A stretch of 64,000 bases of DNA from the IMG/VR virus record IMGVR_UViG_3300032050_000072, positions 1-64,000 of that record; one strand, 5' to 3'. The first letter of the stretch is position 1; each line of letters begins with the position of its first letter. The notes under the pieces are model-generated. The model had not been told where the DNA came from. It was given only the letters and a program-made list of their open reading frames with translations, and did no database searches. Origin of the DNA: a virus. Shown in pieces: positions 1,211 through 61,005 of the stretch. The translations under genes and the position numbers were made by a program.

Positions 1211-1224
1211 CGCAACAAGTTGCG
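1211..1224. repeat. Dispersed inverted repeat CGCAAC-N2-GTTGCG, copy 1
   Basis: Exact copy in the gap between the stop of the 1227-1631 gene and the ribosome site of the tape measure gene. The minus-strand flank TAGTC-site-TGA is shared with the copy at 54775. Confidence 0.85.
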
Positions 1225-1226
1225 GA

Positions 1227-1631
1227 CTAGACTGTCGTTTCGTCGTATCGGTTCGGATGATCGCTCTGCTCGACGACCACCGTCACGTCCCAAATATCGC
1301 GGCTGATTCGCGTCGCCTCGGGCGGCTCCACAAACGAGCATATGACCTCGCGATAGTTCGAGTCGCCCTTGGGCTGGTAGCGATAGATAAAGTCGTTCGC
1401 CAACCCGCCAATCGCCTCGAAGAAGGTCACAAAGGCGTTCATTTCCGAATCGCTCAGCGACTCGAATTTACGAGTCACCTGATAGCGAGTCGGCGCGTGC
1501 TTGACGGCGTAGAGAGAGTTCGCCGAAGTGCGATGCACGCTCTGGGCGAGTAGCGGCTTGACCGCCGCGCCGCCCGCAGGCCACGGCATATTGAGAGTCG
1601 TCACGCCCGCTTTCTTGAATTGCACGCCCAT
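1227..1631 (-). CDS. Hypothetical tail-region protein
   Basis: 134 residues. I do not recognise a family. The protein is soluble-looking, with a mixed composition and a central segment FESLSDSEMNAFVTFFEAIGG followed by a beta-rich stretch; no signal peptide or membrane segment is visible. It sits between the tail assembly chaperone frameshift gene and the tape measure gene, so a tail role is likely from position only. The stop TAG is followed within two bases by a copy of the dispersed inverted repeat. Confidence 0.6.
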   Translation of the reverse strand: MGVQFKKAGVTTLNMPWPAGGAAVKPLLAQSVHRTSANSLYAVKHAPTRYQVTRKFESLSDSEMNAFVTFFEAIGGLANDFIYRYQPKGDSNYREVICSFVEPPEATRISRDIWDVTVVVEQSDHPNRYDETTV

Positions 1632-1646
1632 CAGCCCGCCCCCAAG

Positions 1647-2150
1647 CTAGCGCCCAAGGACTTTGCTGATCGGCTTGGTGCCATCTGCTTGGCACAGCAT
1701 CCCAGCCGCCTTGAGCGATTCGTAAACCTCGTCACGCTCCTTGTCGCAGTCGGCGATCGCTCGCTGAGTCTGCGGATCGAGGGTCTGCTCCCACTCGATC
1801 ACTGTCCCCGGCCCGCTGGTCATCAGGTTGATTCTGGCTAAGATCGCGTCGCGAGTCTTGTCGTCATAGTGCGGAAAGCATGTCGCAATCCGCATGTCCT
1901 CAATCCGCTCCCAGCGACGACGGCAAGCCATCATCGCGTAGTGTAGAGCCGCCACCAAAGGCAGGTCGAGAATGTCACTGTGCGACCAGTGATACTCGCC
2001 TGCGATTGGCTCGACGACATCAAGGCTCCAAGTGTTGTACGGCAGCGTTCGGCTGCCGACATTTACTCGGCTTCGCCGCTCGCTTGCTTGGTCGTTTCGG
2101 ATCGACGGCCTGCGGCGTCCATAAGGCCCCCAATCCGACCAATAAAACCC
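1647..2150 (-). CDS. Tail assembly chaperone, -1 frameshift extension (gpGT-like second part)
   Basis: This frame has no start codon near its conserved beginning but stays open upstream, without stops, to a GGGTTTT heptamer at 2144-2150 inside the preceding gene. A -1 slip there joins the first ~169 residues of the 2063-2650 gene to this frame. The extension contains LPYNTWSLDVVEPIAGEYHW and a helical SDILDLPLVAALHYAMMACRR region, and ends at the TAG at 1647. The layout is that of lambda G/GT: a short and a frameshifted long tail chaperone immediately before the tape measure. The frameshift is inferred from the reading frames; efficiency cannot be judged. A weaker alternative is internal initiation at a GTG/TTG near 1955. 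Confidence 0.65.
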   Translation of the reverse strand, partial: GFYWSDWGPYGRRRPSIRNDQASERRSRVNVGSRTLPYNTWSLDVVEPIAGEYHWSHSDILDLPLVAALHYAMMACRRRWERIEDMRIATCFPHYDDKTRDAILARINLMTSGPGTVIEWEQTLDPQTQRAIADCDKERDEVYESLKAAGMLCQADGTKPISKVLGR

Positions 2151-2650
2151 ACGACGGCCTCCACGGTTTCATGGACCCCCGTGAGTTCAAGAACCTCGGC
2201 GATAATCGCCAGCGCATCGGTGATGCTCAAGGCCGAGATTTCGGCAGGCTTGAGATTCGTGCAGCCGCCGATCAGAGCTTCGATCGCGCCGTCCGAACTG
2301 ACCACCAAGTCGACGATCGCCTCGGTGCGAGCCGAGTTCGACTCGGAGATCATCCGCTTCTGCTCGACGCTCAAGTTGGCGTAAGCCTCTTGAATCAGAG
2401 CCGCTTTGACCTCTTCGCTCGGTGCGGCATTGATCGCCGCCCGCTGTTCCGGGGTAACAAAATCGCCAAGCACCAGTCCAGCCGGGATGCTCTTGATCCC
2501 AGCCTTGGTGATCGCACCCACCACTCTGAACGTGGTGCCAAGCGATAGGCCGCGAACCGACACGCTCGCGCCGTCCTTGGTCACGATTTCCGAAACCCGC
2601 TTGATAGGGGCATCCACCGGCACTTGCCGTGGATCGACTGCCGTTGTCAT
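2063..2650 (-). CDS. Tail assembly chaperone (gpG-like)
   Basis: 195 residues, starting at ATG 2650 with GGGAG seven bases upstream. The protein is mostly helical, with an N-terminal beta-like part (SVSVRGLSLGTTFRVVG) and a C-terminal helical part rich in Ala, Glu and Ile. It has the size, position (after tail tube, before tape measure) and -1 frame overlap expected of the short tail assembly chaperone. A slippery GGGTTTT is read here as GGT-TTT near codon 168. Family assignment rests on gene order and the frameshift rather than on a diagnostic motif. Confidence 0.65.
   Translation of the reverse strand: MTTAVDPRQVPVDAPIKRVSEIVTKDGASVSVRGLSLGTTFRVVGAITKAGIKSIPAGLVLGDFVTPEQRAAINAAPSEEVKAALIQEAYANLSVEQKRMISESNSARTEAIVDLVVSSDGAIEALIGGCTNLKPAEISALSITDALAIIAEVLELTGVHETVEAVVGFIGRIGGLMDAAGRRSETTKQASGEAE
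2144..2150 (-). other. Putative -1 programmed frameshift slippery site GGGTTTT
   Basis: The minus strand reads G-GGT-TTT in the zero frame of the tail chaperone, an exact X-XXY-YYZ heptamer. After a -1 slip the reading continues without stops to 1647, giving a fusion of roughly 335 residues. Confidence 0.6.
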
Positions 2651-2673
2651 AAAAAACTCCCGCGAACTTTAAG

Positions 2674-2711
2674 AGCCGCGCGGGTGACGTTCGCAAGCCA
2701 CCCGCGCGGTT
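2674..2711 (-). terminator. Strong GC hairpin between tail tube and tail chaperone genes
   Basis: An 11-bp perfect stem, CCGCGCGGGTG/CACCCGCGCGG, with a 12-base loop lies between the tail tube stop and the ribosome site of the chaperone gene. On the minus strand it is followed by CTCTTAAAG rather than a clear U-run. It could lower downstream transcription, stabilise the tail tube mRNA, or both. Confidence 0.45.
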
Positions 2712-2736
2712 GCCCCGATCTAACAGGCTGACATCG

Positions 2737-4884: not shown

Positions 4885-4898
4885 CGCAACAAGTTGCG
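4885..4898. repeat. Dispersed inverted repeat CGCAAC-N2-GTTGCG, copy 2
   Basis: Exact copy in the 28-base gap between the 4901-5272 stop and the HK97 gp10-like start. It abuts the downstream gene's ribosome site, so a bound protein could affect expression there. Confidence 0.85.
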
Positions 4899-9117: not shown

Positions 9118-9425
9118 AGAGCTTCAACGAGTTCGACGAACAGCCGAATCGTGTCCGGCGTCGTCTGGGTGTGGAAGGTCAGCGTGCGGCTCGTCCCCTG
9201 AGCCTGCTCGGGATAAGCCCGCAGGCTCTTGCCGAGCGACTTCGCCATTTCCTCTAGCTTGTGATTCGGGTACTTCAAAATCGCGAGCGTGATTTTCTCG
9301 GCCTGAGAAAGCTCAGCGGCCTCCGCAACTTGTTGCGTGCCCGAATCGACCTCACCGGAGAGCACTCTGCCCCTTGTGCTCTCACGGCGGGCCGGTGTTT
9401 TGGTCTTTTCCTGATCTTCGCTCAC
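9108..9425 (-). CDS. Hypothetical protein, GTG start
   Basis: About 105 residues when started at GTG 9425, which overlaps the TGA of the glycosyltransferase gene (GTGA). The longer upstream reading frame would run far into that gene and is unlikely. The N-terminus is polar (EDQEKTKTPARRESTRG), and the second half reads as a compact domain (ITLAILKYPNHKLEEMAKSL, then LTFHTQTTPDTIRLFVELVE). A copy of the dispersed inverted repeat is inside the coding sequence and encodes TQQVAE. Family unknown. Confidence 0.55.
   Translation of the reverse strand: MSEDQEKTKTPARRESTRGRVLSGEVDSGTQQVAEAAELSQAEKITLAILKYPNHKLEEMAKSLGKSLRAYPEQAQGTSRTLTFHTQTTPDTIRLFVELVEALCR
9324..9337. repeat. Dispersed inverted repeat, copy 3 (in CDS)
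   Basis: Exact copy inside the 9108-9425 gene, read there as TQQVAE. Confidence 0.85.
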
Positions 9426-12457: not shown

Positions 12458-12817
12458 CTACGCCGGATTCTCGCAACTTGTTGCGGACGACTTGCCATCC
12501 AGGTAGAAGCCGACGCGGCTAGCCATCGCCTCGCTGGCGTCGTCGAACGGCTCGATGCCAAGATACGTCTTGAGCTTGCGATTTTCGTCGAGCACTTGCT
12601 TGCTTGATCGCAGTTCACGCTCAAGCTCGTCGATCCGCTTCGTCAGCTTCAAGACTGAATCGCGAGCCTCGTCACGCTCCTTGAAAGCGTCTTGAAGTCG
12701 AATCTCCAGCGATTCGATTCTAATTTTGGCGTATCCGCTGACACACGATGACTCTGGCATTGGTCGACCTTCGGCGGCGACTTCGATCACGCCGCCGAGC
12801 GTGGTTCGGTCAGACAT
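12458..12817 (-). CDS. Coiled-coil hypothetical protein
   Basis: 119 residues. The N-terminus GGVIEVAAEG resembles the beginning of the adjacent gene product (GGVVEVSAAS). Residues ~28-78 are a heptad-type coiled coil (ESLEIRLQDAFKERDEARD, LTKRIDELERELRSSKQ). The C-terminus ends in SSATSCENPA, encoded by a copy of the dispersed inverted repeat. It overlaps the preceding gene by eight bases. Function unknown. Confidence 0.5.
   Translation of the reverse strand: MSDRTTLGGVIEVAAEGRPMPESSCVSGYAKIRIESLEIRLQDAFKERDEARDSVLKLTKRIDELERELRSSKQVLDENRKLKTYLGIEPFDDASEAMASRVGFYLDGKSSATSCENPA
12472..12485. repeat. Dispersed inverted repeat, copy 4 (CDS 3' end)
   Basis: Exact copy at the end of the 12458-12817 gene, encoding ATSC-type residues near the C-terminus. 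Confidence 0.85.
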
Positions 12818-19124: not shown

Positions 19125-21593
19125 CTAATTCGGAATTGCCACTGACACGCAGCGACAGTGAACGATGTTTCGCACGCTGCCGCGCGGATCGCCTGGGAAC
19201 CTCAGATATTCGCCACCCACAAAGAAGCTCTCATTTTGGCCGACCTCTTGGCCGTGCGCCGATCGGTGGGCGTCGCGGACGCGGTTGTCGAGTCGCGATA
19301 CCCACCGCTTGAGCTTCACCTTGTCTTTGTTCGCCTCGCGAACGTAGTTGGCACCGCCGTTGTAGGCTGCCGATGTTTCCGTCACCGCGATCGTGCGACT
19401 GCCGTGCTGCACCCGACTATCCATGACCTCATCGACAGCCTTCGCCAGCTTTTCGATCGTCGGCGTGTCGCCGGTCAGCACTCGCGCGAGCTTCTCGCTC
19501 AGTAGCAGCTTGGTCGTGGTCGTCACGGTGCTTTGCCAGAACGAACTAGCCTTTTCCTTGAGCCAGCCGGTAAAGCCCTTGGCCGCGCCGCCGAGTTCTT
19601 TGAGCCCCAGAGCCGCCGCCTGCATCAACGCACCTTTCTTGAGCGCGTCGAGAATCTTCGGCTTCATGCGGCCTTCCAGGTCGTCGCTCGCTTTGACCCA
19701 ATCGTCGAGCCGGTCGATCACTTCCTCTTGCAGCGTGCGGACCATCAAGATCGCAGCCCGCCCCTTGGCGATCTTCTCGGGCTCGATCTCACGACAGCAG
19801 CCCAAGCAGGCCGAGACGATTTCCTCGTCGACATTGCCGCACTCGTCAGCCCCAGTGCCGTCCGGGTACAGCCGCACTTGCGACTCGCCGATCGACATCA
19901 GGTACGACTCCAGCAAAATCGCGGTATCTTCGTGGTCGCCACCGGCCCCGCGTGACGCCGCCTCGGCATCGTTGGCTGGCAGATCAGGAAACGCCTTGGC
20001 GAGATTCGCCTTGATCCTCGTGGCCTGCTTCGAGAAATACTTCCGCAGCGTCGGCACGGTCGACGAAACCAGACCATCCAGGTCCGACTCAACCGATCGC
20101 GTGATCGTGGCAATCGCCCGCTCGTCTTCCACGCAACTTGTTGCGGGCAGCTTTTCGTTGCAGCAGGTCGACCGCTGCCCGGCTTCGATATCACCGGACA
20201 GCGGCCTCCCTGTCTGCGCTGACTTGGCAACCGGCACCGCGTCGGCATTGCTGCCGTCGATAGGCGGCTGGTTTTGATCGACTTGGTTCTGGTCTATTGG
20301 AGCCGCCGGATCGCCCTGTGGAGCCGCCGCTGGCTTCATTTGGAGTTCATATAGCCAGCGCGGAACGTCGCCCCACGGCACCTTGGGCTCGCCTCGCTTC
20401 TCGCGGATTTCATTGACCGTCAGGATGCCCGTCAAGGCATCGCGGTTTTCGAGTTGGTTGTCGAGAGCCCGCTCGGCGGGGACCGGATTATCGAACTCGA
20501 CGCACAGGTCGTCGCCGAACTCGATCGCCAGCGACTTGTTGATCTTCTCTTGAATCTGCACCAGCCTCGGCCAGATCGTCTCCATTGCGAAGACGCGCTC
20601 TTGGCTCGCGGTGTTGCTGTTGTTGGCGTTCTCGACCACACCGGCCAGCAATGGCGGCACGCCGAAGATGCCCAGGATTTCGTCGCGCGTGAACGCCGCC
20701 GAATCTTTGAACGCCATTTCGCCCCAGGCCCGCTGCGAAGCGATCGGCTTCACACCGCCATAGAGCAGCACCGGCATCCCGGCCTTGTTCACGCCCGTAT
20801 GCCGCTCGATCAAGTTCGCCATCATCCTCTTCCAGCCCGGCTCGTCGAGCATCGAGTCGGTCGAGAAATAAAGGCTCGACAGGATATCCTGATCGAACGC
20901 CTTTAGCTGTGCCCGCTTGATCGAATCGTTGGCCGACTTCGCCTCGGCAGCCGCCGCCAGCGTCCCCCAGCCCCAGAAGCGATCGCGCGGATTGTCGTGC
21001 TTGATATGCACGATGTCGGCCCGTGGAATCTGGATCGCCTCGCCTCGGCCCGCCAGAAACTCGTAGCCCCAGAGAACCTCGCCGTCCGTGTGCAGCGGCC
21101 TGACGTACTGCGACGGCAGCACCCAAAGCTCGACCACCTTGCCTCGCCGGTCGCGAACCTTGAGCCAGATGGCATTGCCGGTCAACTCCAAGAACATCAC
21201 CGTCTGCGACCAGAACTCGCTCTTGGTGTCGAGCGGGTTTGGGTTTTCGATCAGACGAACGAGTTCGTTCTTCGGGTCGGTGATCTCAACCGGCTTGTCG
21301 CCGTTACGGTTCATGCGGTAGACCCGCATTGGCACTCGCGCGACGCCATTGCGGATTCGATTGACCGCGACGAAGACCCAGCCGGTCATCGACTGGACTT
21401 GCTGTGCCACCGACAGGCCGTTTTGGGCCTTGGTGGTATTCTGGAACCCAAACGCCAGCCGCAGCCGCTCGTTCAAGGCTTCCATATCGGCAGCCCGTTG
21501 AATGAACTGCTGATTGGCGATCGGCGCGCAGAACTCCGCGCCAGGATAATCGCTTGCCTGCCCGTCCGTTCGGATTGTGATTTCGGTGCTCAA
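19125..21593 (-). CDS. Portal protein fused to Mu F-like minor head protein
   Basis: 822 residues from a TTG start at 21593 with a G-rich ribosome site. Residues ~30-430 are an HK97-type portal: ALNERLRLAFGF, AVNRIRNGVARVPMRVY, YEFLAGRGEAIQIP, ILGIFGVPPLLAGVVENANN. A Pro/Gln linker follows (~435-470). The last ~110 residues are a Phage_Mu_F head-morphogenesis domain: RTIAVTETSAAYNGGANYV, RWVSRLDNRVRDAHRSAHG, and NIVHCRCVSV. A Cys-rich stretch near 470-500 (CCNEKLPATSC) includes a dispersed inverted repeat. Portal and MuF are normally separate genes; here they are one reading frame with no stop. Confidence 0.85.
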   Translation of the reverse strand: MSTEITIRTDGQASDYPGAEFCAPIANQQFIQRAADMEALNERLRLAFGFQNTTKAQNGLSVAQQVQSMTGWVFVAVNRIRNGVARVPMRVYRMNRNGDKPVEITDPKNELVRLIENPNPLDTKSEFWSQTVMFLELTGNAIWLKVRDRRGKVVELWVLPSQYVRPLHTDGEVLWGYEFLAGRGEAIQIPRADIVHIKHDNPRDRFWGWGTLAAAAEAKSANDSIKRAQLKAFDQDILSSLYFSTDSMLDEPGWKRMMANLIERHTGVNKAGMPVLLYGGVKPIASQRAWGEMAFKDSAAFTRDEILGIFGVPPLLAGVVENANNSNTASQERVFAMETIWPRLVQIQEKINKSLAIEFGDDLCVEFDNPVPAERALDNQLENRDALTGILTVNEIREKRGEPKVPWGDVPRWLYELQMKPAAAPQGDPAAPIDQNQVDQNQPPIDGSNADAVPVAKSAQTGRPLSGDIEAGQRSTCCNEKLPATSCVEDERAIATITRSVESDLDGLVSSTVPTLRKYFSKQATRIKANLAKAFPDLPANDAEAASRGAGGDHEDTAILLESYLMSIGESQVRLYPDGTGADECGNVDEEIVSACLGCCREIEPEKIAKGRAAILMVRTLQEEVIDRLDDWVKASDDLEGRMKPKILDALKKGALMQAAALGLKELGGAAKGFTGWLKEKASSFWQSTVTTTTKLLLSEKLARVLTGDTPTIEKLAKAVDEVMDSRVQHGSRTIAVTETSAAYNGGANYVREANKDKVKLKRWVSRLDNRVRDAHRSAHGQEVGQNESFFVGGEYLRFPGDPRGSVRNIVHCRCVSVAIPN
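20132..20145. repeat. Dispersed inverted repeat, copy 7 (in CDS)
   Basis: Exact copy inside the portal-MuF gene, in the linker region, encoding LPATSC. Confidence 0.85.
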
Positions 21594-22592: not shown

Positions 22593-22606
22593 CGCAACTT
22601 GTTGCG
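22593..22606. repeat. Dispersed inverted repeat, copy 8
   Basis: Exact copy between the terminator of the 22661-23896 gene and the tRNA promoter. Confidence 0.85.
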
Positions 22607-24961: not shown

Positions 24962-25564
24962 TTATCCGCAACTTGTTGCGGGCAAGGATCGCAACAGGCT
25001 CGCGCGAACGGCATCACGAAGCGTCGGCTTGATTTCCACGGGCAACTCGACGGGCGGCTCGATCTCCACGGGCGTCGCGTTCACGACCGGCTCAAACCGC
25101 CAGCAGAACGGCCTGACCAGATTGCCCTTGCGATTGATAATGCAGAGCGACGGGAAGTGATTCCGATCGTTATCCAGTACACTCTTGTCGAGTGACTTCT
25201 GGAAGTCTTCGCCGAGACGAACGAACTCGAACTCGTCGCCATTCTCGCCATAGCAGCGATCGCGATCTGTCTCTATCAGCCGCATCTTGTCGCCCGGCTT
25301 GAGCCCGTCGACCCAGCGCAGGTCTTCCGGCAGCGAGTGCAGCTTGTTCGTGTGGAACAGCGGCTCGAAGAACGATATGAAGTCTGCGAGCCAAGCCGAC
25401 CATGCCGTTCCGCGTAGCGTGAAGAGAATCGTATCTTTCCCGTGACACAAATCGCGTCCGGTGACTGTCTCGATATCACCGGGCTGGCAGTCTAACAGAT
25501 TCTTGATGCAGCGAATCTTGTCGCCGACCTGCAAGCGGTAGACCCAAGTTGGTATCGCGGTCAT
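24962..25564 (-). CDS. Barrel-repeat protein with TLR tail (two units)
   Basis: 200 residues. Two SH3-like/KOW barrel units can be seen, one beginning LQVGDKIRCIKNLLDCQPGD and one beginning LKPGDKMRLIETDRDRCYG; both finish with a (C/A)WRFEP- or FFEP-like phrase. A Pro/Glu linker precedes the C-terminal tail PTLRDAVRASLLRS. The last residues LPATSCG are encoded by a dispersed inverted repeat. It overlaps the next upstream gene as ATGA, forming an operon of three such proteins. Function unknown. Confidence 0.6.
   Translation of the reverse strand: MTAIPTWVYRLQVGDKIRCIKNLLDCQPGDIETVTGRDLCHGKDTILFTLRGTAWSAWLADFISFFEPLFHTNKLHSLPEDLRWVDGLKPGDKMRLIETDRDRCYGENGDEFEFVRLGEDFQKSLDKSVLDNDRNHFPSLCIINRKGNLVRPFCWRFEPVVNATPVEIEPPVELPVEIKPTLRDAVRASLLRSLPATSCG
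24967..24980. repeat. Dispersed inverted repeat, copy 9 (CDS 3' end)
   Basis: Exact copy within the last codons of the 24962-25564 gene, encoding PATSC. Confidence 0.85.
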
Positions 25565-27941: not shown

Positions 27942-27955
27942 CGCAACTTGTTGCG
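27942..27955. repeat. Dispersed inverted repeat, copy 10 (5' leader)
   Basis: Exact copy 10 bases upstream of the 27581-27931 start, in the short gap after the 27976-28134 stop. It overlaps or abuts the GGAG ribosome site. Confidence 0.85.
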
Positions 27956-28647: not shown

Positions 28648-28661
28648 CGCAACAAGTTGCG
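28648..28661. repeat. Dispersed inverted repeat, copy 11
   Basis: Exact copy three bases after the TAG stop of the terminase large subunit gene. Confidence 0.85.
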
Positions 28662-34085: not shown

Positions 34086-34616
34086 TCAACTAGACTTTCC
34101 ACTCCACGAGTAGCCGCACTTCGGGCAGCGATGGTCTGTGTTGATCGACTCGTCGACCTCTGGAAAATCAACAGGCGACTCGCTGAGTGGCTCCATTGCT
34201 GGAATGGCACCGGCCTTCTCGGCCAAGCTCGTCACGAGTTGCTGCAAACTCTCGTCACTAAACTGGACACTATCGAGCAACTGGGTCAAAGCACCGGCGT
34301 CGGAATCGGCCATCGCGCCAATTGGGTCCATCGTGGCCAGCAGTTTGTTGGCCTCAAATTCGTCGACATCGAGAATCAAAACAGGCACAAGCTCGTCGGC
34401 CCTCGACATGACATCGGCACGCAGGTGTCCGTCAATAATTTCAAGACGACCATCAATCTCACGGGCAATGACGGCGGAAGCCATTCCGATTTCGCCAATC
34501 GCGGCAACCAATGCTTCGCGCTGCCTGATTCCGTGCCTGCGCCAGTTCTTGTCATTTTCGACAAGATCACAAGCTGGAACCATCCTGAGTTCTTTGACTC
34601 GATTTTTAATCGACAT
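34086..34616 (-). CDS. ParB/Srx-fold nuclease-like protein with zinc ribbon
   Basis: 176 residues. The N-terminal ~85 residues resemble the ParB N-terminal domain: NRVKELRMVPACDLVEND, then AREIDGRLEIIDGHLRADVM with the DGHxR motif of the CTP/phosphate-binding box. The C-terminus ends in a zinc-ribbon-like HRCPKCGYSWSG. Such proteins lie near phage DNA methylases and may be NTP-dependent regulators or nucleases. It is the first of three ParB-like proteins in the window and sits beside the C5-methyltransferase. Confidence 0.65.
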   Translation of the reverse strand: MSIKNRVKELRMVPACDLVENDKNWRRHGIRQREALVAAIGEIGMASAVIAREIDGRLEIIDGHLRADVMSRADELVPVLILDVDEFEANKLLATMDPIGAMADSDAGALTQLLDSVQFSDESLQQLVTSLAEKAGAIPAMEPLSESPVDFPEVDESINTDHRCPKCGYSWSGKSS

Positions 34617-35563: not shown

Positions 35564-36171
35564 ACTCGCACCGCGACTTTCTTGCGACCACGCAACTTGT
35601 TGCGGGCAGTTTTCTTGCGAACCACGACAACCTTCCGCTTGGCGTTGAGCTTTACGCTGACCTCGCGGTGAACGCCTGACGACGGCTTGAAGTTGCCGTT
35701 ATTGGCAATGATGTTTCGCAGGATCGCCGCCATGACCTGACGATCTCTGTCGTCTCGATCCCAACCGTCGCGGTCGCTGACGATCTCATTCCACGGCTCA
35801 AAATCGCTCGCCGAAGTCATGTGGAATCGCTCGTAGACATCCTCGATTTCAAGCAGCAAGCTACGATTGAAAACGTCTGCGAGTTTGTCTCTGACTTCAA
35901 ATCCGCATGACGGAGCGACTTTGCCATCTGGGTAATTGATCCAGCCGGTGTCGAATCTTCGCAATCGACCAACCAGCAGCGACCCGATCGCGCAGACCTC
36001 GCAGCCATTCAGGTCGCGTTTACTGCGGACCTCGGAGCCGTTGTCAAACGAGCCGCAAACGTAGACATGCGCTGGCTCGATTTTTCCATGCTCCAACTGC
36101 CACAGTGCGTCAGCGGCAATGTCGACAGCCATACGGTTCTTGCCTTTACGGCACTTGAATACTCGCTTCAT
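35560..36171 (-). CDS. Hypothetical protein with basic C-terminal tail
   Basis: 203 residues. Starts MKRVFKCRKGKNRMAVDIAA; a second segment has Cys pairs (NGCEVCAIGSLLVG), and the last ~40 residues are strongly basic (KRKVVVVRKKTARNKLRGRK), likely binding nucleic acid. The dispersed inverted repeat encodes part of that tail. It shares the ARNKLRGKK-like ending with the next gene. Family unknown. Confidence 0.5.
   Translation of the reverse strand: MKRVFKCRKGKNRMAVDIAADALWQLEHGKIEPAHVYVCGSFDNGSEVRSKRDLNGCEVCAIGSLLVGRLRRFDTGWINYPDGKVAPSCGFEVRDKLADVFNRSLLLEIEDVYERFHMTSASDFEPWNEIVSDRDGWDRDDRDRQVMAAILRNIIANNGNFKPSSGVHREVSVKLNAKRKVVVVRKKTARNKLRGRKKVAVRV
35591..35604. repeat. Dispersed inverted repeat, copy 12 (in CDS)
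   Basis: Exact copy in the basic tail of the 35560-36171 gene, encoding ARNKLRG. Confidence 0.85.
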
Positions 36172-36683
36172 GCTCGTTGTCCTCCTCGTTTTTTGCCACG
36201 CAACTTGTTGCGGGCTGGCTTTTCGGAACTGGGAAATTTCGCGGTCGGATTCTCAATCAGCGTCGCTAGCCATTCGCCGATGAACTCGGCGGCGTCATCC
36301 GGGTGGGCGGTGTCGAATCTTGCCTTGTAGCGATCCTCGACGACGCTTGAGTTGTTCGTTCTCAGCAACTCGACCTCCAGCCAAGTCGCACTCACCGGAT
36401 CGGTCGAATTGTCAGTGCCGCTCGACGCACGAACACGAAGCTCGCCCTGCCGCCACGGAATCATCACATCAAACACCGCGACACCCGCGATCACCTTGGC
36501 CGGGCATGGCTCGTGCCGGTTGATATCAGGGCGAATCTCGAAGATCGGAGCAAGCTCGGCCTCGACCTCTCGCAGTACATTGATGGCTCGCGCCATCTTG
36601 ACCTTAGCCAGCGATTCGATCTGATCTTTCTGCCACTTGATCTCGTCTGTCTTGCGGCTGAAAGCAGCCAGTGCTCGACTCAT
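36168..36683 (-). CDS. Hypothetical protein with basic C-terminal tail
   Basis: 171 residues from ATG 36683. A helical N-terminus (KWQKDQIESLAKVKMARAI) is followed by a beta region (AKVIAGVAVFDVMIPWRQGE, SATWLEVELLRTNN). The tail ends KPARNKLRGKKRGGQRA, the same ending type as the downstream gene product, encoded by another inverted repeat copy. Overlaps both neighbours by four bases. Unknown function; the repeated tail hints at a shared partner or a mobile 3' end. Confidence 0.5.
   Translation of the reverse strand: MSRALAAFSRKTDEIKWQKDQIESLAKVKMARAINVLREVEAELAPIFEIRPDINRHEPCPAKVIAGVAVFDVMIPWRQGELRVRASSGTDNSTDPVSATWLEVELLRTNNSSVVEDRYKARFDTAHPDDAAEFIGEWLATLIENPTAKFPSSEKPARNKLRGKKRGGQRA
36199..36212. 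repeat. Dispersed inverted repeat, copy 13 (CDS 3' end)
   Basis: Exact copy near the end of the 36168-36683 gene, encoding ARNKLRG. Confidence 0.85.
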
Positions 36684-37683: not shown

Positions 37684-37697
37684 CGCAACTTGTTGCG
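37684..37697. repeat. Dispersed inverted repeat, copy 14
   Basis: Exact copy between tRNA-Arg (3' end at 37706) and the start of the 37262-37666 gene. Confidence 0.85.
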
Positions 37698-45445: not shown

Positions 45446-46354
45446 TTAAGGCTTGAGCCACAGGGCTAGATCGCCCGCGCTCATAAAGCCGGTTGCCGTT
45501 TTGACCGCCTTGCTGCGGCCAATGCCACGAACGCCAGGATCAAGAATCATCGTTGTCGGACAAACCCGCACGCGATAGCGATCGAACGCAGCGTGATCCT
45601 CTTGCGAGTCCAAGTAGACGAACTTGTACTTTTGCAGAGCCGCCTTGGCTGGCTCCTTGTCGAGTTCGGCCTTGAGTTTGCGACACGGCTCGCAGCCGAC
45701 CATGCCGAATATCGCCAGCACTTTCTTGCCGTCCTGCTTGGCCTCGGCCAGAGCGGCGTCGAGCTTGTTATTGCCCCGAGCTTCCGGTTCGCGGTAGGAA
45801 ATACGGCGGCACGACTGGCAACCCGACTGAACCTTGCTGGCTCGATTCGGACACGACTCGCACTGGCAGTCGCCGCACTTACACGGCCCGCCACTGAGCA
45901 AGCAAGTCACCCGCTGCGGCGTAATCGCCTCGCGATGGCACTCACTGCTCCAGCTTCCGTCAGCCTGCTGGCGGTAGATCACGAGCTTTTCGCCTTCGCC
46001 CCATTGCTCGTCGAGTTCCTTGCGGTACTTGCTCAGCACGCTCACTAGCACGGCCCTGTCGGCAGCCGGATGCAGCGTGTTGTCGCTCACCAGCACGGCC
46101 AGCGGCGTCTTGTCGGCCAGGGCCTTGTCGTAGGCAATCTTGTAATCGTCGACCGGCTCACGCTCGAAAGAACTATCAGGCGGCAGGCCGACATCGACAG
46201 CCACCGCAAGCTCATCGGCGCGCGACTCGAACACAGCCACGACCGGCTTCGACTCCGCAACAAGTTGCGTGACGGCTGGCTTGGCCTGGAGCGAGAACGA
46301 ATTGAAAACGCAAACGACGATCGCCGTCAGCAGCGAGAACTTTCCCGAGTTCAT
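45446..46354 (-). CDS. Secreted thioredoxin-fold protein with Cys-rich insert
   Basis: 302 residues. The start MNSGKFSLLTAIVVCVFNSF is a signal peptide. Residues ~145-190 are very Cys-rich (CLLSGGPCKCGDCQCESC, CQSCRRISYREP). Residues ~205-295 are thioredoxin-like: VLAIFGMVGCEPCRKLKAEL has a C-x-x-C, VRVCPTTMILDPG has the cis-Pro. It would act on disulfides in the periplasm or outer compartment. A dispersed inverted repeat is inside the coding sequence. It overlaps the previous gene as ATGA. Confidence 0.65.
   Translation of the reverse strand: MNSGKFSLLTAIVVCVFNSFSLQAKPAVTQLVAESKPVVAVFESRADELAVAVDVGLPPDSSFEREPVDDYKIAYDKALADKTPLAVLVSDNTLHPAADRAVLVSVLSKYRKELDEQWGEGEKLVIYRQQADGSWSSECHREAITPQRVTCLLSGGPCKCGDCQCESCPNRASKVQSGCQSCRRISYREPEARGNNKLDAALAEAKQDGKKVLAIFGMVGCEPCRKLKAELDKEPAKAALQKYKFVYLDSQEDHAAFDRYRVRVCPTTMILDPGVRGIGRSKAVKTATGFMSAGDLALWLKP
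46256..46269. repeat. Dispersed inverted repeat, copy 16 (in CDS)
   Basis: Exact copy near the start of the thioredoxin-like gene, encoding VTQLVAE. Confidence 0.85.
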
Positions 46355-48742: not shown

Positions 48743-49813
48743 TTAGCCGATAGCATTGGTGAGCCGCTCCCATAGCTCGTGGACAATTCCCCGCACTAGG
48801 TAGCGGCGATCCTCGTCGTCCAGGTTTTGCTTGGCTTCGATCAGCTTGGCAGCGCGAATGATATCGTCGCCCATGAACTCAAAGCGATCCCGCCCACACT
48901 CAGGCCCGCAGACATCCTTGCCAGATTCGGACACGCAACAAGTTGCGGGCTCAGACTCCGGTGCCGCCTCGACCACTTCCTTTGGCTTTTCGACTGCCTT
49001 CTCTGGTACAGGATACAGGGTGTCGGTTGCTTTCACCAAGTCGGTTAGCTCCTCGCGGGTGTGACCGGCAGCGATCCAATCACTGACATCACCTTTCGGT
49101 GGCAGGCCCGGCAGCCGCACGATCTTGATCGACGACGCCTTACCGACCAGTGACTCGACAATATCGCGGGCGTGTTGCTCGCCGACTGAGTAGCCGAGCT
49201 TTTCGTCGACCGGATCGTTATCGGGCAACACGACCACATGACAGCCCTTGAGAAAATCCGAGTAGCCAGCGTTCCATTTGCCAGCACCCATCGGGTTACA
49301 GGTCGCCACCAGCCCGAGCCCGACCAGCGTCTCGACATCCTTCTCGCCTTCGGGCACGAACACCACTCGCTTCTTGGCGTTAGCGATCAACTCCGGCAGC
49401 CGGTAAAGCACCCGACGACACTCACCCAGACCCCAGACCCAGCCGTCGCCTTCCGGTCGGCGCTGGCGAAACTGCTTGCCCTCTAGCCGCACGACTTGGT
49501 ACAGCAGCTTGTGCTCTTCGTCGCGGTAGTCGTATGTCTTCTCGATGTTACTGCTCATCACCGTCCTCCTTCTCGGTTTCTGACTGTCAAAAAAATCGCT
49601 CGCCTTGAGTCCAATCGCCTGAATCACCTGCTGGAACGAACACCCTCGATGGCAGCGCATTAGCAGGCGGTTATTCTTGACCGCGATCGACAAGCTCGCG
49701 TTATGCTTGCCATCGGTTTCGTGGGCCGGGCAATGGGCCTCCCACCCCCAGCGACGTTCGCGGCACTTGTGCAGCTTCTCGAATACGCCAGAGAACTGCG
49801 GCGGATAATTCAC
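48743..49813 (-). CDS. DNA primase (CHC2 zinc finger and TOPRIM)
   Basis: About 356 residues from GTG 49813, which overlaps the methyltransferase stop as GTGA. Residues ~15-60 form the zinc-binding part (AHCPAHETDGKHNASLSIAV, CHRGCSFQQVIQAIGL). Residues ~140-230 are a TOPRIM domain: VVFVPEGEKDVETLVGLGL with the Glu, GAGKWNAGYSDFLKGCHVVV and LPDNDPVDEKLGYSVGEQHA. It primes phage replication; a helicase domain is not fused. A dispersed inverted repeat occurs within the C-terminal part. Confidence 0.8.
   Translation of the reverse strand: MNYPPQFSGVFEKLHKCRERRWGWEAHCPAHETDGKHNASLSIAVKNNRLLMRCHRGCSFQQVIQAIGLKASDFFDSQKPRRRTVMSSNIEKTYDYRDEEHKLLYQVVRLEGKQFRQRRPEGDGWVWGLGECRRVLYRLPELIANAKKRVVFVPEGEKDVETLVGLGLVATCNPMGAGKWNAGYSDFLKGCHVVVLPDNDPVDEKLGYSVGEQHARDIVESLVGKASSIKIVRLPGLPPKGDVSDWIAAGHTREELTDLVKATDTLYPVPEKAVEKPKEVVEAAPESEPATCCVSESGKDVCGPECGRDRFEFMGDDIIRAAKLIEAKQNLDDEDRRYLVRGIVHELWERLTNAIG
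48934..48947. repeat. Dispersed inverted repeat, copy 17 (in CDS)
   Basis: Exact copy in the primase gene, encoding ATCCVSE. Confidence 0.85.
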
Positions 49814-51244: not shown

Positions 51245-51258
51245 CGCAACAAGTTGCG
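51245..51258. repeat. Dispersed inverted repeat, copy 18
   Basis: Exact copy two bases after the TAG stop of the 51261-51554 gene, immediately before the tRNA-like element. Confidence 0.85.
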
Positions 51259-53027: not shown

Positions 53028-54689
53028 TTATGTTGCCGTCGCCGACACTCGGCGACTAATCCTAGGATTGATCTCGTCCGTGATCCGCTTTGCCGCCTCG
53101 GCCTTGGTGACATTGGTGTCGTAGCCGTAGGCAGCGAGCAGCTTGGCTTGCTGCGCGGTGCATAGACCAGCCGACTGACGGCGTTTTAGCTCGTCGATCA
53201 GCTTGGTTGCTTTGTGGAGCGAAAGCGTCTCGGGATTGCGGACCCCGTTGCTTCGCAGGTAGGCTCGCTGCCTTTCGGTCGATGGCTTGCCGCGCAAGTA
53301 GCCCGGCTCGCGGCCTGCCCGAATGTCGAACAGGTCAAACGGACTGACATCGCGAACGAAGTAGCTGGCCTGGGCGATCAGCTTGGCCCGCTCCTCGCGG
53401 CGACGTTCCGCCATTTGCTCCTCGACCCACTTCATCGCCTCAAGTACATCGGTGTCGACGCCCTTGGCGGCACGCTCGCGAATTTTCTTCTCGGCTTCTT
53501 CGACGATCTCGTCGGAGTATTTGCCGCCGAGAACATCGCTGGCGTGAATCAGCTTGTGCCTACCCGAGTTGCCGACGAAATCCACGATCACGCAGTCCGG
53601 CTTGCTTGAGCGAGCGATCGCCGCTCTGCGAGCATCGGCGCTGTCGTGGTGGTCGTCGATTCGAGCTTCGGGCAGCGGTCGTGTGCCTCGGCCAGCAATC
53701 TGGGCATACAGGCTGCGGCTCTTGGTTGGTCGAGCCATGATGATATTGCGGACGTTCGGCAGATCGGTCCCCTCGGTCAGCACGGCACAGTTGACGATCA
53801 CCTGAATCCGGCCATCCTTGAACTGCCGCAGATAATGTCGCCGCTTTTCCTTCTCGGTTTCGCCGTCGATCGCAACTGCCATGCCTTGTCGATGACGGTT
53901 GAAAATGTCAGCCATCTGGTGAGCGTGCGAAACACCAGCCGCAAAGACCAGCGTCGGCTGGTCGCCTATCAATTCGATCGACGGCGACACGACCTTGTGC
54001 AGCATTGACTCTTCGGTCATCACCGCTTCAAGCTCGGCAGCATTAAGATCGCCACCAGTCGTCTTGACTCGCGACAGGTCTAGATCACCAACCGTCACCA
54101 ATCGCTGCCGCACCGGCACCAGCCAGCCGCCCTCGATTGCATCTTGAACGCCGAACTCAAACGCCACTGAATCGAACGTCTCGCCGAGCGCCATTTCGTC
54201 GGCCCGATCCGGCGTTGCAGTGATCCCGAAAATCTTGAGGCTTGGATTCTGCGTGAAGTGCCGAACGATACTCATGTAGCTCTTAGCACACCCCGCTGCG
54301 TGATGGGCTTCGTCTATGATAAGAAGCCCATAGTCCGCTGGATCGTGTTTCATCAACCTGCGACTTTGGCAAAGCGACTGCACGCTCGCGACAATCCCCG
54401 GCGAACGAAACATGCCACCGCCACTTGCCGCGCTATACTCTGCCATTTCAACCTCAAAGCTCGCCCCGCTCATTTCGTCGAGACGTTGCTTACTCTGCAT
54501 CACGAGTTCTTCGCGGTGAGCAATCATGCAGACCCGACCACGATTCAGCGCAAGCCATTTTCTGACGATCTCTCCTGCTATTGCGGTCTTGCCAGTTCCG
54601 GTCGCGCTGACTGCAAGTGTAGAACGCTGCGTTTCGAACTCGCGAAACACGCTCTCAATACATTCTGTTTGATAGGGGCGTATCTTCAT
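53028..54689 (-). CDS. SF2 DEAD/DEAH-box helicase
   Basis: 553 residues. Motifs in order: PYQTECIESVFREF (Q-like), TLAVSATGTGKTAIAGEIVR (I), MIAHREELVMQSK (Ia), LLIIDEAHHAAG (II, DEAH), IFGITATPDRAD (III), VIVNCAVLTEGTDLPNVRNI (V) and YAQIAGRGTRPLPEA (VI). The C-terminus carries a helical substrate domain. It resembles phage/prophage UvsW/Res-type helicases for replication fork or recombination intermediates. A terminator-type hairpin is upstream of its start. Confidence 0.88.
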   Translation of the reverse strand: MKIRPYQTECIESVFREFETQRSTLAVSATGTGKTAIAGEIVRKWLALNRGRVCMIAHREELVMQSKQRLDEMSGASFEVEMAEYSAASGGGMFRSPGIVASVQSLCQSRRLMKHDPADYGLLIIDEAHHAAGCAKSYMSIVRHFTQNPSLKIFGITATPDRADEMALGETFDSVAFEFGVQDAIEGGWLVPVRQRLVTVGDLDLSRVKTTGGDLNAAELEAVMTEESMLHKVVSPSIELIGDQPTLVFAAGVSHAHQMADIFNRHRQGMAVAIDGETEKEKRRHYLRQFKDGRIQVIVNCAVLTEGTDLPNVRNIIMARPTKSRSLYAQIAGRGTRPLPEARIDDHHDSADARRAAIARSSKPDCVIVDFVGNSGRHKLIHASDVLGGKYSDEIVEEAEKKIRERAAKGVDTDVLEAMKWVEEQMAERRREERAKLIAQASYFVRDVSPFDLFDIRAGREPGYLRGKPSTERQRAYLRSNGVRNPETLSLHKATKLIDELKRRQSAGLCTAQQAKLLAAYGYDTNVTKAEAAKRITDEINPRISRRVSATAT

Positions 54690-54774: not shown

Positions 54775-54788
54775 CGCAACTTGTTGCG
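54775..54788. repeat. Dispersed inverted repeat, copy 20
   Basis: Exact copy two bases after the TAG stop of the ParB-like gene, followed by the terminator-like hairpins. The TAGTC flank matches copy 1. Confidence 0.85.
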
Positions 54789-54790
54789 GA

Positions 54791-55744
54791 CTAGAACGCG
54801 GCTGCCGGATTCGACCAGCGTTCGCGATCCTCTTCGCTGGCGAGATCGAACACGCCACGCGGAATCCAGCCCATGCCACGGCATTGATTGCAGCAGTCGC
54901 CGTTGCAATGCGGGCAGACGGTGTACGGTGCCATCGTCTTGAGTTCTTTCTCAAGGCTCTTGCTCGCGGCGTTCATTTCCGGCAAAGCTCGCTCCAGGTA
55001 AGCACCGGCAGCGGTATCGCAGAGAACCTTCACTCGCTTGCGGAAATCACGCTGCAAGGCACACAGAGCGTCGAACTCTTTGAGCATGTCCCAGCACTCG
55101 CGCAAGTCGGCTGGAATTTCGTGGCCGAGTTCGTCGGTCGTGATCTCGTCCTGCTCGTCTTCATCGGGAACGCCCGGCGCGTCGTCGCTTTCCTTGCCGC
55201 CCATCAAGTCATCGCCAAGCTCGTCGATGATCGTTCGCAGCTTCACATCGCCGTTGACGACTTTCTTGAACAGGTCCGGCCTTTCGACTCGCAGCTTGTC
55301 AGCGAATCGCAGGTAGCGGCGATTGGTGCCGATCTGCTTGGCGAGATCGTCAAGCTCCTCGTCAACCGGCTTCGGCTTCGGCGTTGGTTCCCCTGGCTTG
55401 GCTGGTTTTGCTTCCTTCTCGGCAGCGTCACGCAGTCGTCGCTGAATTGACATCGCTTGGCAAGCCACGGCAGCGCGCTGACTGCTCGATAGATGCCTGC
55501 GGCTAGCGTTGAGCGACATCACGAACGACACGATCTGATCTTCGGTCCCGGTGTATTCTTGAGTTGGGCACTCGATCCCAAGCTCCTGGCAGCAAATGAA
55601 ACGGTGCCTGCCGTCGATGACCTGATCCTTCCAGACCCAGACCGGAATCCGCACGCCGTTCTGGCGAATGTCTTCGAGCATGGCCCGCTTTTCGTCGGGG
55701 TCCATTTCTGGGAATAGCGTGCAAACCTCATGAAACTTCAACAT
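54791..55744 (-). CDS. ParB-like protein with C-terminal zinc finger
   Basis: 317 residues. The N-terminal ~90 residues are ParB-like: DPDEKRAMLEDIRQNGVRIP, VWKDQVIDGRHRFICCQELG (DGRHR), then SLNASRRHLSSSQRAAVACQ as the helix-turn-helix part of ParB. The C-terminal end has a DnaJ-like zinc finger, CPHCNGDCCNQCRGMGW. It sits among recombination genes; a role in DNA binding or regulation is likely. Whether it recognises the dispersed CGCAAC repeats cannot be told. Confidence 0.7.
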   Translation of the reverse strand: MLKFHEVCTLFPEMDPDEKRAMLEDIRQNGVRIPVWVWKDQVIDGRHRFICCQELGIECPTQEYTGTEDQIVSFVMSLNASRRHLSSSQRAAVACQAMSIQRRLRDAAEKEAKPAKPGEPTPKPKPVDEELDDLAKQIGTNRRYLRFADKLRVERPDLFKKVVNGDVKLRTIIDELGDDLMGGKESDDAPGVPDEDEQDEITTDELGHEIPADLRECWDMLKEFDALCALQRDFRKRVKVLCDTAAGAYLERALPEMNAASKSLEKELKTMAPYTVCPHCNGDCCNQCRGMGWIPRGVFDLASEEDRERWSNPAAAF

Positions 55745-55764: not shown

Positions 55765-56583
55765 TTACTTGCCTGCGTTCAATTCCACCGAACGCACTGA
55801 GATCATTTCGCCTAATTGTTCCAACTCTGGCCCTGAGAAGCCGTAGGTGGACTTCGCAAACTCATTGCCAAGCTGAGCCAGCTTCGCCAGATCGGCAGCC
55901 CTGGCGATCGCCGCCTCGGCCCGCTTGAGTAGCATTTGCTTGTTGCTCTTGGCTTGATCGGCGCTCTGCGGCCTCGCCGGATTCGACATTGCCTGGGTGG
56001 CATTGCGTCGGCCAGCACCAGCAGCGCCCGCTGGCCTGCGGTCGGACGGCTTTCGCTCCGGCACGCGGTCGTCGTGGTCGCTGTCGTCCATGTCGCCCTC
56101 TTCGACCGGGATGCACAGCCCGAGCGTCATGGCATACTTGTAGGCAACGCTGTGGGCCTTGTTCGCCGCCTTGTCGCCGTTGTGATCGCAGGCCGAACCG
56201 AACGCCTCGAAGCTGACATTCGATCCGTCTGGCGCGTAGAGCGTGACCCGCAGGTGAATCTTGGCGAAGATTACCCAGCGGAACTTGGCTTTCAGACGCA
56301 GCCATTCATCCAGCTTTGCCAGTCGAGGGTCTTCGGTCGCCACAAGGTCTTCGGTCGCGGAGACGATCGCAGTCGAGAGTGTGATGCCGCACTTGGTCAG
56401 CGCCGGACCCACGGCATTGAGAATGTCGTCGATCCCTCGGAAGCGATAACCCTGGCTGTCGTTTTTCTTGGCTTTGACGATCGCGCCGATCTCGGCCCGC
56501 ACCATCGGAACCAGCCGGAAGATTTCAGGCCCGCAACTTGTTGCCGCTGGCTCCGGCGTCTCTTCTGCATTTTCACGGATCAC
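55765..56583 (-). CDS. ERF-family single-strand annealing protein
   Basis: 272 residues from GTG 56583, overlapping the nuclease gene's stop (GTGA). ERF signatures are YRFRGIDDILNAVGPALTKC, a beta region (WVIFAKIHLRVTLYAPDG), and GSACDHNGDKAANKAHSVAY followed by YAMTLGLCIPVEEGDMDD. The C-terminus is a variable Pro/Ser-rich linker and helix. It anneals single strands in phage recombination, with the adjacent nuclease as partner. A degenerate inverted repeat copy lies at the start. Confidence 0.85.
   Translation of the reverse strand: MIRENAEETPEPAATSCGPEIFRLVPMVRAEIGAIVKAKKNDSQGYRFRGIDDILNAVGPALTKCGITLSTAIVSATEDLVATEDPRLAKLDEWLRLKAKFRWVIFAKIHLRVTLYAPDGSNVSFEAFGSACDHNGDKAANKAHSVAYKYAMTLGLCIPVEEGDMDDSDHDDRVPERKPSDRRPAGAAGAGRRNATQAMSNPARPQSADQAKSNKQMLLKRAEAAIARAADLAKLAQLGNEFAKSTYGFSGPELEQLGEMISVRSVELNAGK
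56532..56545. repeat. Dispersed inverted repeat, copy 21 (one mismatch)
   Basis: CGCAAC-TT-GTTGCC: the last base differs from consensus. It is near the start of the ERF gene, encoding AATSCG. Confidence 0.75.
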
Positions 56584-59516: not shown

Positions 59517-59540
59517 AAAATAACGACTTACGACAACTTG

Positions 59541-59582
59541 GCCCAGTGGCGGAATAGGCAGACGCAAAGGACTTAAAATCCA
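59541..59582 (+). other. Attachment site core candidate: 5' half of tRNA-Leu (TAA)
   Basis: The run begins GCCCAGTGGCGGAATAGGCA and continues through the anticodon region ACTTAAAATCC, i.e. the 5' acceptor, D-arm and anticodon loop of a tRNA-Leu(UAA). The variable arm, T-arm and 3' acceptor do not follow. It lies 24 bases after the integrase stop, so it is probably attP identity with a host tRNA-Leu gene. Confidence 0.65.
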
Positions 59583-59716: not shown

Positions 59717-59718
59717 AA

Positions 59719-59928
59719 TCAGTCACCGCACCTGCACGCCGCAGGCATCTTGCCGCACTCTTCGCACGGCTTAACATCGTCTTCGACGCACTCGCAAACG
59801 CCAGCCCGCTTGTCGCAGAGCCAGCAGATCAAGCCGGAGCCAAGACAGTCGATACATCGACCACCGGACTCGTAGCGGCCCTTGCCGTTGCACCAGATGC
59901 AAGGTCGGCGGATCATGATTGTGGTCAT
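59719..59928 (-). CDS. Small Cys-rich zinc-finger protein
   Basis: 69 residues from ATG 59928. Four Cys pairs are visible (CIWCNGKGRY, CIDCLGSGLICWLC, CEECGKMPAACRCGD), with a DnaJ-type C-x-x-C-x-G-x-G motif. It overlaps the glycosyltransferase gene by ATGA. Probably binds zinc; partner unknown. Confidence 0.55.
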   Translation of the reverse strand: MTTIMIRRPCIWCNGKGRYESGGRCIDCLGSGLICWLCDKRAGVCECVEDDVKPCEECGKMPAACRCGD

Positions 59929-60638
59929 TTGCGAACCTCGTGCCAGTGATCCCTGTGCGTAGCCGGGTCCAAAATGCCGTCCAGCGGATCGCCGACCCAC
60001 AGGCGGCAATGCTGATGCTCGGCGTGCCACTCCGGCCCAGGGCAGTACGTGCCGCCATCGGCTCCGATATTCTGGGCGCGGCTCAAGACCGGATAGACCT
60101 GATAGCGGTCGCCACGAATGTGCTTGTTGACTCCGATATCCCACGGGTGATAGCCCCAGTTCTTCTTCATTTCGACGAAGCGATCCTCCCAGGTGCCCCA
60201 GCCCCAGGGCGAGAACCATTGGTCGCGGCCCAATTCCTTGAACATGCCGCGATGGTGTCGATCGGTGCGGTTGTTCCAGGCCGTCACCGTGAAGACTTCG
60301 CGGTCGTCGCGGTAGGCGTTGTTCATCCAGGTGAACATTTCCAGGGCGTCTTCGCCGAGCAGCACATCGTCCTCGACATGTACGACGAACGAGCCGTGAT
60401 CGAACCCGAGCGACAAGGCTTGCAGCGTGTTCTCGCCGCAGCCGAGCTTCTGGCGATTCTCGACCAGTACCACATCGCAGGGAATCGTCTCGATCGCCGC
60501 GATGATCTCGCCCTTGAACTCACTCGGCTCGATGCAGGCGATCAGTGTGGAATTGCCGATGCCACGAACCTTCGCCAGTGCGGCAGCCCATTTTCGCGTG
60601 TAGACCGGACGGTTGAATTGGCAGGTTGTCAGTATCAT
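59925..60638 (-). CDS. Glycosyltransferase-like protein (GT-A fold)
   Basis: 237 residues. The N-terminal half reads VRGIGNSTLIACIEPSEFKG and DVVLVENRQKLGCGENTLQA; the metal-binding motif is FVVHVEDDVLLGEDALEMFT with EDD; then VFTVTAWNN and FSPWGWGTWEDRF, the phrase typical of GT-A acceptors. It resembles eukaryotic-type GnT/WcaA-like transferases. It is the third glycosyltransferase-like gene of the phage and is overlapped by the small Cys-rich gene. Confidence 0.7.
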   Translation of the reverse strand: MILTTCQFNRPVYTRKWAAALAKVRGIGNSTLIACIEPSEFKGEIIAAIETIPCDVVLVENRQKLGCGENTLQALSLGFDHGSFVVHVEDDVLLGEDALEMFTWMNNAYRDDREVFTVTAWNNRTDRHHRGMFKELGRDQWFSPWGWGTWEDRFVEMKKNWGYHPWDIGVNKHIRGDRYQVYPVLSRAQNIGADGGTYCPGPEWHAEHQHCRLWVGDPLDGILDPATHRDHWHEVRK

Positions 60639-60654
60639 TTCTCGCGCCTATACT
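60626..60654 (+). promoter_or_regulatory. Sigma70-type promoter for small plus-strand gene
   Basis: TTGTCA (60626-60631), 17-base spacer, TATACT (60649-60654). It points toward the 60696-60905 gene, divergent from the glycosyltransferase gene, and overlaps its start codon. The GTCTA motif is absent. Confidence 0.6.
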
Positions 60655-60695
60655 TTGGTGAATGTCAATCTATTCGCCACCTGGAGTCAATCAGC

Positions 60696-60905
60696 GTGCA
60701 ACCAGCACAAATGTCTCGCTTCTGCAAAGTCTGCGACCGAAAGACGCTGCACACTGAGGAACAACGCGGCTGCGGACACCTGATCTTTGCTCTCGTGCTC
60801 GCGATCCCGACCGCAGGCTTGTCGCTGCTCTGGCTGGCGGTGATCGGCTTTGTGCCGACCGTCAAGCGATGCCAAACCTGCGGAACCGGACGAATCCGAA
60901 TCTGA
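60696..60905 (+). CDS. Small zinc-ribbon membrane protein (plus strand)
   Basis: 69 residues from GTG 60696 with GGAG upstream (an inner ATG at 60711 is possible). FCKVCDRKTLHTEEQRGCGH is a zinc-ribbon half, HLIFALVLAIPTAGLSLLWL one membrane segment, and RCQTCGTGRI the second Cys pair. This is the only plus-strand gene outside the integrase module; the consensus promoter upstream argues it is real. Family unknown. Confidence 0.6.
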   Translation: MQPAQMSRFCKVCDRKTLHTEEQRGCGHLIFALVLAIPTAGLSLLWLAVIGFVPTVKRCQTCGTGRIRI

Positions 60906-60991
60906 AAATATGACCAGTGCCGCTCTCGCGGAAACGGCACCGGCCCCTGCGGTAGATGGTAGTTGCAATGCCGCAGGCCAATTGCAAGCTC

Positions 60992-61005
60992 CGCAACTTG
61001 TTGCG
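60992..61005. repeat. Dispersed inverted repeat, copy 22
   Basis: Exact copy directly after the TAA stop of the SSB gene. 60906-60991 between the genes holds nothing else I recognise. Confidence 0.85.

Follow-up and report, generated by a model that had tools for sequence, protein, structure and literature searches.

The window analysed here comprises 64,000 nucleotides of viral DNA (positions 1 to 64,000 of the IMG/VR record IMGVR_UViG_3300032050_000072), belongs to a temperate siphovirus and carries a dispersed 14-bp inverted repeat, CGCAAC-(AA/TT)-GTTGCG. The copies of this palindrome constitute a strict, symmetric, selectively maintained and phage-specific class of sites which extends over the whole genome and recurs in unrelated phages encoding ParB-like proteins. 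All 22 positions listed for the repeat in the initial annotation, a model's reading of the bare sequence, proved correct, with 21 exact copies and one (at 56532) with a single mismatch. The claim that such recurrence exceeds chance also held, as 100 dinucleotide shuffles of the window gave a mean of 0.11 copies and a maximum of 2, and the excess persists in the complete record of 83,617 bases, with 26 exact copies plus 56532 and none of the control pattern. The ends of the record overlap by about 258 bp and are bridged by the independent contigs L246 and L247; the genome is therefore circular and complete, with a size of about 83.4 kb.

Properties and placement of the palindromic sites

The sites in the window are given below by coordinates, central dinucleotide and position relative to genes, promoters and close relatives (L058, L088).

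1211..1224, AA, 2 nt after the stop of 1227-1631 (minus strand)
4885..4898, AA, 2 nt after the stop of 4901-5254 (minus strand)
9324..9337, TT, coding
12472..12485, TT, coding, 14 nt before the gene end; kept in L088
13925..13938, TT, just downstream of promoter 13950-13978 and 10 nt before a start codon; kept in L088
15546..15559, TT, 2 nt after a stop codon, upstream of promoter 15497-15525
20132..20145, TT, inside a portal-type gene, linker PATSC
22593..22606, TT, intergenic, after a terminator-like hairpin plus T-run; centre flipped in L058 with identical flanks
24967..24980, TT, last codons of 24962-25564 (minus strand), upstream of promoter 24909-24937
27942..27955, TT, 10 nt before the start of 27581-27931 (minus strand)
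28648..28661, AA, 3 nt after the stop of the terminase large subunit gene, upstream of promoter 28589-28617
35591..35604, TT, coding, 31 nt before the gene end
36199..36212, TT, coding, 31 nt before the gene end
37684..37697, TT, intergenic, 17 nt before a start codon
42164..42177, AA, intergenic, upstream of promoter 42099-42127
46256..46269, AA, coding
48934..48947, AA, coding
51245..51258, AA, 2 nt after a stop codon
52312..52325, TT, coding
54775..54788, TT, 2 nt after the stop codon of a parB-like gene, between parB and helicase
56532..56545, TT, one mismatch, in an Erf-like gene
60992..61005, TT, directly after the SSB stop codon

Further exact copies lie beyond the window at 65855, 67620, 69518, 75415 and 80573 of the full record.

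Throughout the genome the spacer is always 2 bp and the centre is AA or TT only. The mismatch classes 0/1/2/3 contain 26/1/2/5 sequences, against 0/0/1/10 under a Markov model, and a symmetric preference in the flanks widens the conserved palindrome to 18 bp, YM-CGCAAC-WW-GTTGCG-KR. Both the AA and the TT orientation are present on the same coding strand, with a weak clustering along the genome (p = 0.013). Judged by their sequences, the 27 copies very probably form a single class of 18-bp sites, strict in sequence and functionally symmetric, each recognised by a dimeric DNA-binding protein.

Half-sites are rarer than expected in this genome (10 seen, 34 expected); no weight was given to this avoidance, because it was not found in three other phages with comparable sites described below (Firecracker, G447 and MW202545) and because the genome avoids many restriction-type hexamers. 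Genome-wide, 6-bp palindromes are strongly avoided (GCCGGC 2 vs 119 expected, ATCGAT 0 vs 106 expected) and so are type IIS-like hexamers (GGTCTC, GAATGC, GCAGTG, CTGAAG), as expected for a phage facing many restriction systems.

Placement was assessed on mechanical gene calls made in this analysis. Across the genome, 16 of the 27 palindromes are wholly intergenic (9.9% expected, p = 4e-10), the median copy lies 17.5 bp from a gene end where 159 bp would be expected, and eight copies start exactly 2 nt past a stop codon, which bears out the closeness to gene ends and stops noticed earlier. The split of the window copies into 12 intergenic and 10 coding, also reported then, matches the present gene calls. 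The genic copies are translated in several reading frames, in line with the earlier reading, and often encode apparent linkers or C-termini, e.g., PATSCG, RNKLR or PQQVA. The proposed density of about one copy per 3 kb is correct, and the spacing is more even than random (coefficient of variation (CV) 0.55, p = 0.0004).

Conservation in close relatives

Close relatives are available as partial contigs that are 85–98% identical to the phage overall and 89–100% identical in the site flanks. The search in related phages proposed by the initial annotation showed that all eight comparable palindromes are kept. The sole change among them is one AA/TT centre flip, at site 22593 in L058, where the surrounding ±40 bp are identical; if the 14 bp evolved like the flanks, the lack of any arm change would have a probability of about 6e-4 by our own arithmetic. 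Intrastrand template switching within the palindrome is a plausible cause of the flip. A flip with unchanged flanks means that polarity is not essential and the site is functionally symmetric, and a functional polarity of the AA/TT orientation was rejected given this flip and the weakness of the clustering. The strict dyad, the 18-bp symmetric footprint and the flip in a relative support the earlier proposal of a dimeric protein site.

ParB-like proteins of the phage

The window encodes three ParB-like proteins, as had been proposed, one of them next to a helicase gene.

54791..55744, minus strand, ParB-like protein with a predicted ParB/Noc/KorB-type fold, best candidate reader of the sites
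53028..54527, minus strand, helicase (phrog_16), just downstream of parB, an order common to G447 and MW202545
61436..62230, minus strand, second ParB-like protein (phrog_1033), alternative candidate reader
34086..34616, minus strand, third ParB-like protein (phrog_620), weaker candidate

The AlphaFold model of the 54791-55744 protein has a mean predicted local distance difference test (pLDDT) score of 79.6, with about 87 or more for residues 1–180, and its 27 best PDB matches in Foldseek are ParB, Spo0J, Noc or KorB. Both methods together predict a ParB N-domain and a helix-turn-helix fold for this protein. The Pfam family ParB_N (PF02195) fails to detect these ParB-like proteins and is thus not usable for base rates. 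The N-terminal half of the 54791 protein matches proteins of LE1 (3e-19), ctsTn925 (2.5e-18) and AP1 (1.4e-15), and matches of C-terminal halves connect AP1 with MW202545 (4.9e-24) and ctsTn925 with G447 (4e-10). These similarities place the protein in a mosaic group of ParB-like proteins from phages, the majority of whose genes immediately precede a helicase gene. The Acidovorax phage AP1 (OM049504), which also carries a helicase-adjacent ParB-like gene, has an iteron-like array of 12 tandem CGCATCGCCGTA copies with 18- or 36-bp spacing at 3273-3590.

Sites of the same kind in other phages

Whole-record motif counts covered 50 viral contigs holding at least one copy of the palindrome, and two of them stand out: G447, with 8 exact copies in 58.4 kb, and its relative G407, with 6 in 20.7 kb. 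G447 has a GC content of 0.46 and a terminase only 25% identical to that of the window phage. CGCAAC-N2-GTTGCG, in which the centre can be AA, TT or AT, is its top dispersed palindrome, and a helicase gene comes directly after the ParB gene, the order seen in the window (54791, then 53028).

The closest precedent is found in Cluster O mycobacteriophages (Corndog, Firecracker), whose 17-bp repeat TGTTCGG-N3-CCGAACA occurs in 34 copies and is of unknown function (PMC4351075). These repeats have AAA/TTT centres and no clear orientation, lie in intergenic and genic DNA and are absent from the host; the authors regarded transcriptional regulation as unlikely and left the function open, with a ParB-like protein being encoded (PMC4351075). 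The mismatch classes 0/1/2/3 of the Firecracker repeat (34/4/1/3) are as sharp as those of the window phage. Both systems combine tens of copies with invariant arms, hardly any near-misses, an asymmetric A/T-rich centre that is not strictly oriented, a genome-wide distribution between and inside genes and a ParB-like protein. They differ in that Cluster O phages have another arm sequence, a 3-bp centre, an unrelated host and no obviously temperate lifestyle, show no half-site avoidance, and space their repeats less evenly (CV 1.04 vs 0.55), with many copies crowding the right end. The ParB proteins of Cluster O and the window phage gave no direct match, so no shared descent is seen, and the literature searched contained no explanation of the Cluster O repeats later than 2015.

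A prediction was tested on six phages picked solely by ParB homology to G447 or Firecracker. The strongest annotated ParB homolog of G447 (43% over 128 residues) is encoded by MW202545, which has a palindrome TACTAGTC-W-GACTAGTA in 8 exact copies and none with 1–4 mismatches. Two of these copies lie inside parB itself, where they are translated as two TSQTS stretches of a linker, and a helicase gene comes next; in the window phage, site 54775 lies 2 nt after parB. Sites inside the MW202545 parB gene add weight to the ParB link. The identical site in the unrelated G447 and the MW202545 family reached through ParB homology are new here.

A uniform scan for sharp families yielded four positives, none among 15 other ParB-bearing phages and one among 26 controls (G413). 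The four phages concerned (the window phage, Firecracker of Cluster O, G447 and MW202545) all encode ParB-like proteins. The hit in G413 (IMG/VR 3300025838_000048) consists of five exact copies of TTAACA-N2-TGTTAA at 25491-33399; it has the same 6-2-6 geometry, and was rejected as a dispersed family since it is confined to about 8 kb and is probably an ordinary operator set. In G398 (IMG/VR 3300048589_000504), CACGGCCGTG was rejected as a sharp family because it is part of a dense repeat, the 8-bp palindrome ACGGCCGT, present 99 times in 70.6 kb vs about 2 expected; this is similar to a highly iterated palindrome and not sharp like the CGCAAC sites.

A ParB-like protein as the proposed reader of the sites

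From the sequence comparisons and the fold prediction, the most likely reader of the sites would be the orphan ParB-like protein 54791-55744, with 61436-62230 as the alternative, an assignment that we hold with moderate confidence. We infer that a dimer of a phage ParB-like protein binds each 18-bp palindrome. If the protein acts like ParB, Noc and KorB, each site may serve, in the manner of parS, to load a cytidine triphosphate (CTP)-dependent clamp that then spreads, and sites about 3 kb apart would let such clamps cover the entire circular phage genome or divide it into compartments. The purpose might be silencing, as for KorB, DNA organisation, as for Noc, or replication, as the helicase neighbour would suggest, rather than ParA-driven partition.

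The ParB reading of the initial annotation thus gains from two further phages with the parB–helicase order and from the predicted ParB/Noc/KorB fold, and loses its ParA-type partition component. No AAA_31 match that would indicate ParA was found in the window phage (G000), G447 or MW202545, and classical partition is therefore disfavoured. A ParB-fold protein with palindromic sites, in MW202545 inside parB itself, resembles ParABS systems, whereas the lack of a detected ParA and the dispersed rather than clustered sites of the window phage set it apart. Noc of Bacillus, a paralog of ParB, recognises a 14-bp palindrome scattered across the chromosome, and Noc structures are among the Foldseek matches of the window protein; the two cases differ in that Noc is chromosomal and acts in membrane-associated nucleoid occlusion. 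The window protein also resembles KorB in Foldseek. KorB of the IncP plasmid RK2 is a ParB-family CTPase clamp that exerts long-range silencing from palindromic operators, OB (PMC11790492). OB sites lie at various distances from promoters and are tied to promoters and KorA, while most sites of the window phage are not near promoters and no KorA partner was identified in an analysis that made no search aimed at one.

Several observations weigh against a ParB-like reader. Five of the six phages in the prediction test lack such palindromes, so that one positive in six makes the test suggestive and not decisive. Orthologs of the 54791 protein in LE1, ctsTn925, AP1, G400, G401 and G402, as well as ParB homologs in Adler, Kiko, MW202898, CHOED and MT835519, occur without such sites. 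ParB of this kind hence does not require them, and ParB as a sufficient cause was rejected, given the 15 ParB-bearing phages without a sharp palindrome family. The direct match of the 54791 protein with its counterparts in G447 and MW202545 is weak, and the window sites are single, while G447 and MW202545 also have close pairs. In favour of a ParB-like reader, each of the three positives that were found independently (the window phage, G447 and Firecracker) encodes a phrog_1033 ParB, against 3 of about 29 controls (p = 0.004); this association is post hoc, with small numbers and controls that are partly fragments.

Alternative explanations

Stoperator-like silencing, in which a dimeric phage repressor at gene ends would block stray prophage transcription genome-wide, is unlikely to account for the sites. 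It suits a temperate phage with nearly all genes on one strand, in which a tyrosine integrase gene adjoins the 5' half of a tRNA-Leu(TAA) (59540-59582, probably attP), and in which the mostly intergenic sites often lie just past stop codons and in several cases just upstream of promoters. The stoperators of Cluster A phages, however, are asymmetric, oriented with transcription, and read by a protein shared with the promoter operators (PMC9283540). The window sites are symmetric, occur in both orientations and include several copies deep inside genes, and the promoters carry a different operator, so that the reader and the promoter repressor would be two proteins. The Cluster O phages, which have the same kind of sites, are not obviously temperate (PMC4351075). 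The earlier comparison to stoperators therefore stands for the distribution, i.e., many dispersed sites near gene ends in a temperate phage, and fails for asymmetry, orientation and a reader shared with the promoter operators.

The promoters in question are about 16 repeated sigma-70-like sequences, TTGAC-N4-GTCTATC-N5-GATATACT, nearly all on the minus strand, in which an inverted repeat, GTCTATC-N5-GATATAC, is embedded that looks like an immunity operator.

13950-13978, 15497-15525, 24909-24937, 28589-28617, 40349-40377, 42099-42127 and 62933-62961, sigma-70-like promoters, with others making up about 16
62232..62450, minus strand, Xre-type regulator, candidate repressor of these separate promoter operators

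About five of these promoters have a palindrome 21–37 bp on their upstream side and two have one shortly downstream; the remainder have none. The palindrome was rejected as the operator of the main promoters, which carry GTCTATC-N5-GATATAC and mostly lack it.

It is improbable that the phage borrows a host-encoded DNA-organising or regulatory protein, although an identical 14-mer in two unrelated phages of different GC would fit such a reader. An exact 36-mer of the tRNA-Leu half was found in a metagenome-assembled genome (MAG) of Pirellulales (L154, of similar GC), with further occurrences in Lachnospiraceae and Anaerolineaceae; Planctomycetota genomes contain relatives of the ParB-like protein, and the host is, from these sequences, probably a planctomycete. 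In 392 Planctomycetota genomes the motif does not exceed a reversed-pattern control (29 have 1–3 copies), and the Pirellulales genome with the attP tRNA contains no copy. A host repeat of similar density, which the initial annotation had named as the outcome that would speak against function, was thus not encountered and was rejected as an explanation; the lack of excess in these genomes argues for a phage-encoded reader, with the planctomycete host being itself only probable. A search of a phage collection with the window DNA gave no match, and no close prophage copy turned up in a scan of genome contigs aimed at the tRNA attP. Besides the tRNA-Leu half, the window contains seven tRNA genes (Trp, Thr, Ser, Ala, Gly, Met, Arg) at 21757-22533 and 37705-37778.

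Landmarks of replication, recombination or packaging, such as multiple origins, resolvase sites or packaging sites, are similarly doubtful. The ParB gene adjoins the helicase and the Erf/exonuclease module, and the asymmetric central dinucleotide recalls serine-recombinase sites. Against this, a recombinase would hardly use such short half-sites, a phage genome is unlikely to have dozens of origins, and relatives show no rearrangements at the sites: the deletion junctions in L058 and L088 join two promoter repeats, not palindromes, with loss of the gene cassettes in between.

Very little speaks for a small mobile or repetitive element spreading as a complete unit without benefit to the phage. 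The absence of intermediate copies would agree with it, but all compared sites are conserved against diverging flanks, spacing is even and placement frame-compatible, the unrelated phage has the same 14 bp without shared flanks, and no precise insertions were seen here. RNA hairpins (terminators or processing signals), which the earlier note had also argued against, were rejected and are hardly credible: pairing of the arms is feasible and T-rich DNA follows a few copies, yet the arms are invariant and not covarying, the loop would have only 2–4 nt, copies lie in frame inside genes, and the T-rich tract is also found upstream of promoters lacking the palindrome.

Conclusions

To the precedent of Cluster O, this genome adds a temperate phage of another lineage, an identical site in an unrelated phage, and MW202545. 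Taken together, the cases point to one class of readers, phage ParB-like proteins, and simple binding and deletion experiments can address it. We tentatively suggest a recurrent new class of phage systems, in which an orphan ParB-family protein, often encoded beside the replicative helicase, would load at dozens of invariant parS-like palindromes and clamp the entire genome or divide it into compartments without ParA, and which would include Cluster O. If such a class exists, it would explain the 17-bp repeats of the Cluster O mycobacteriophages.

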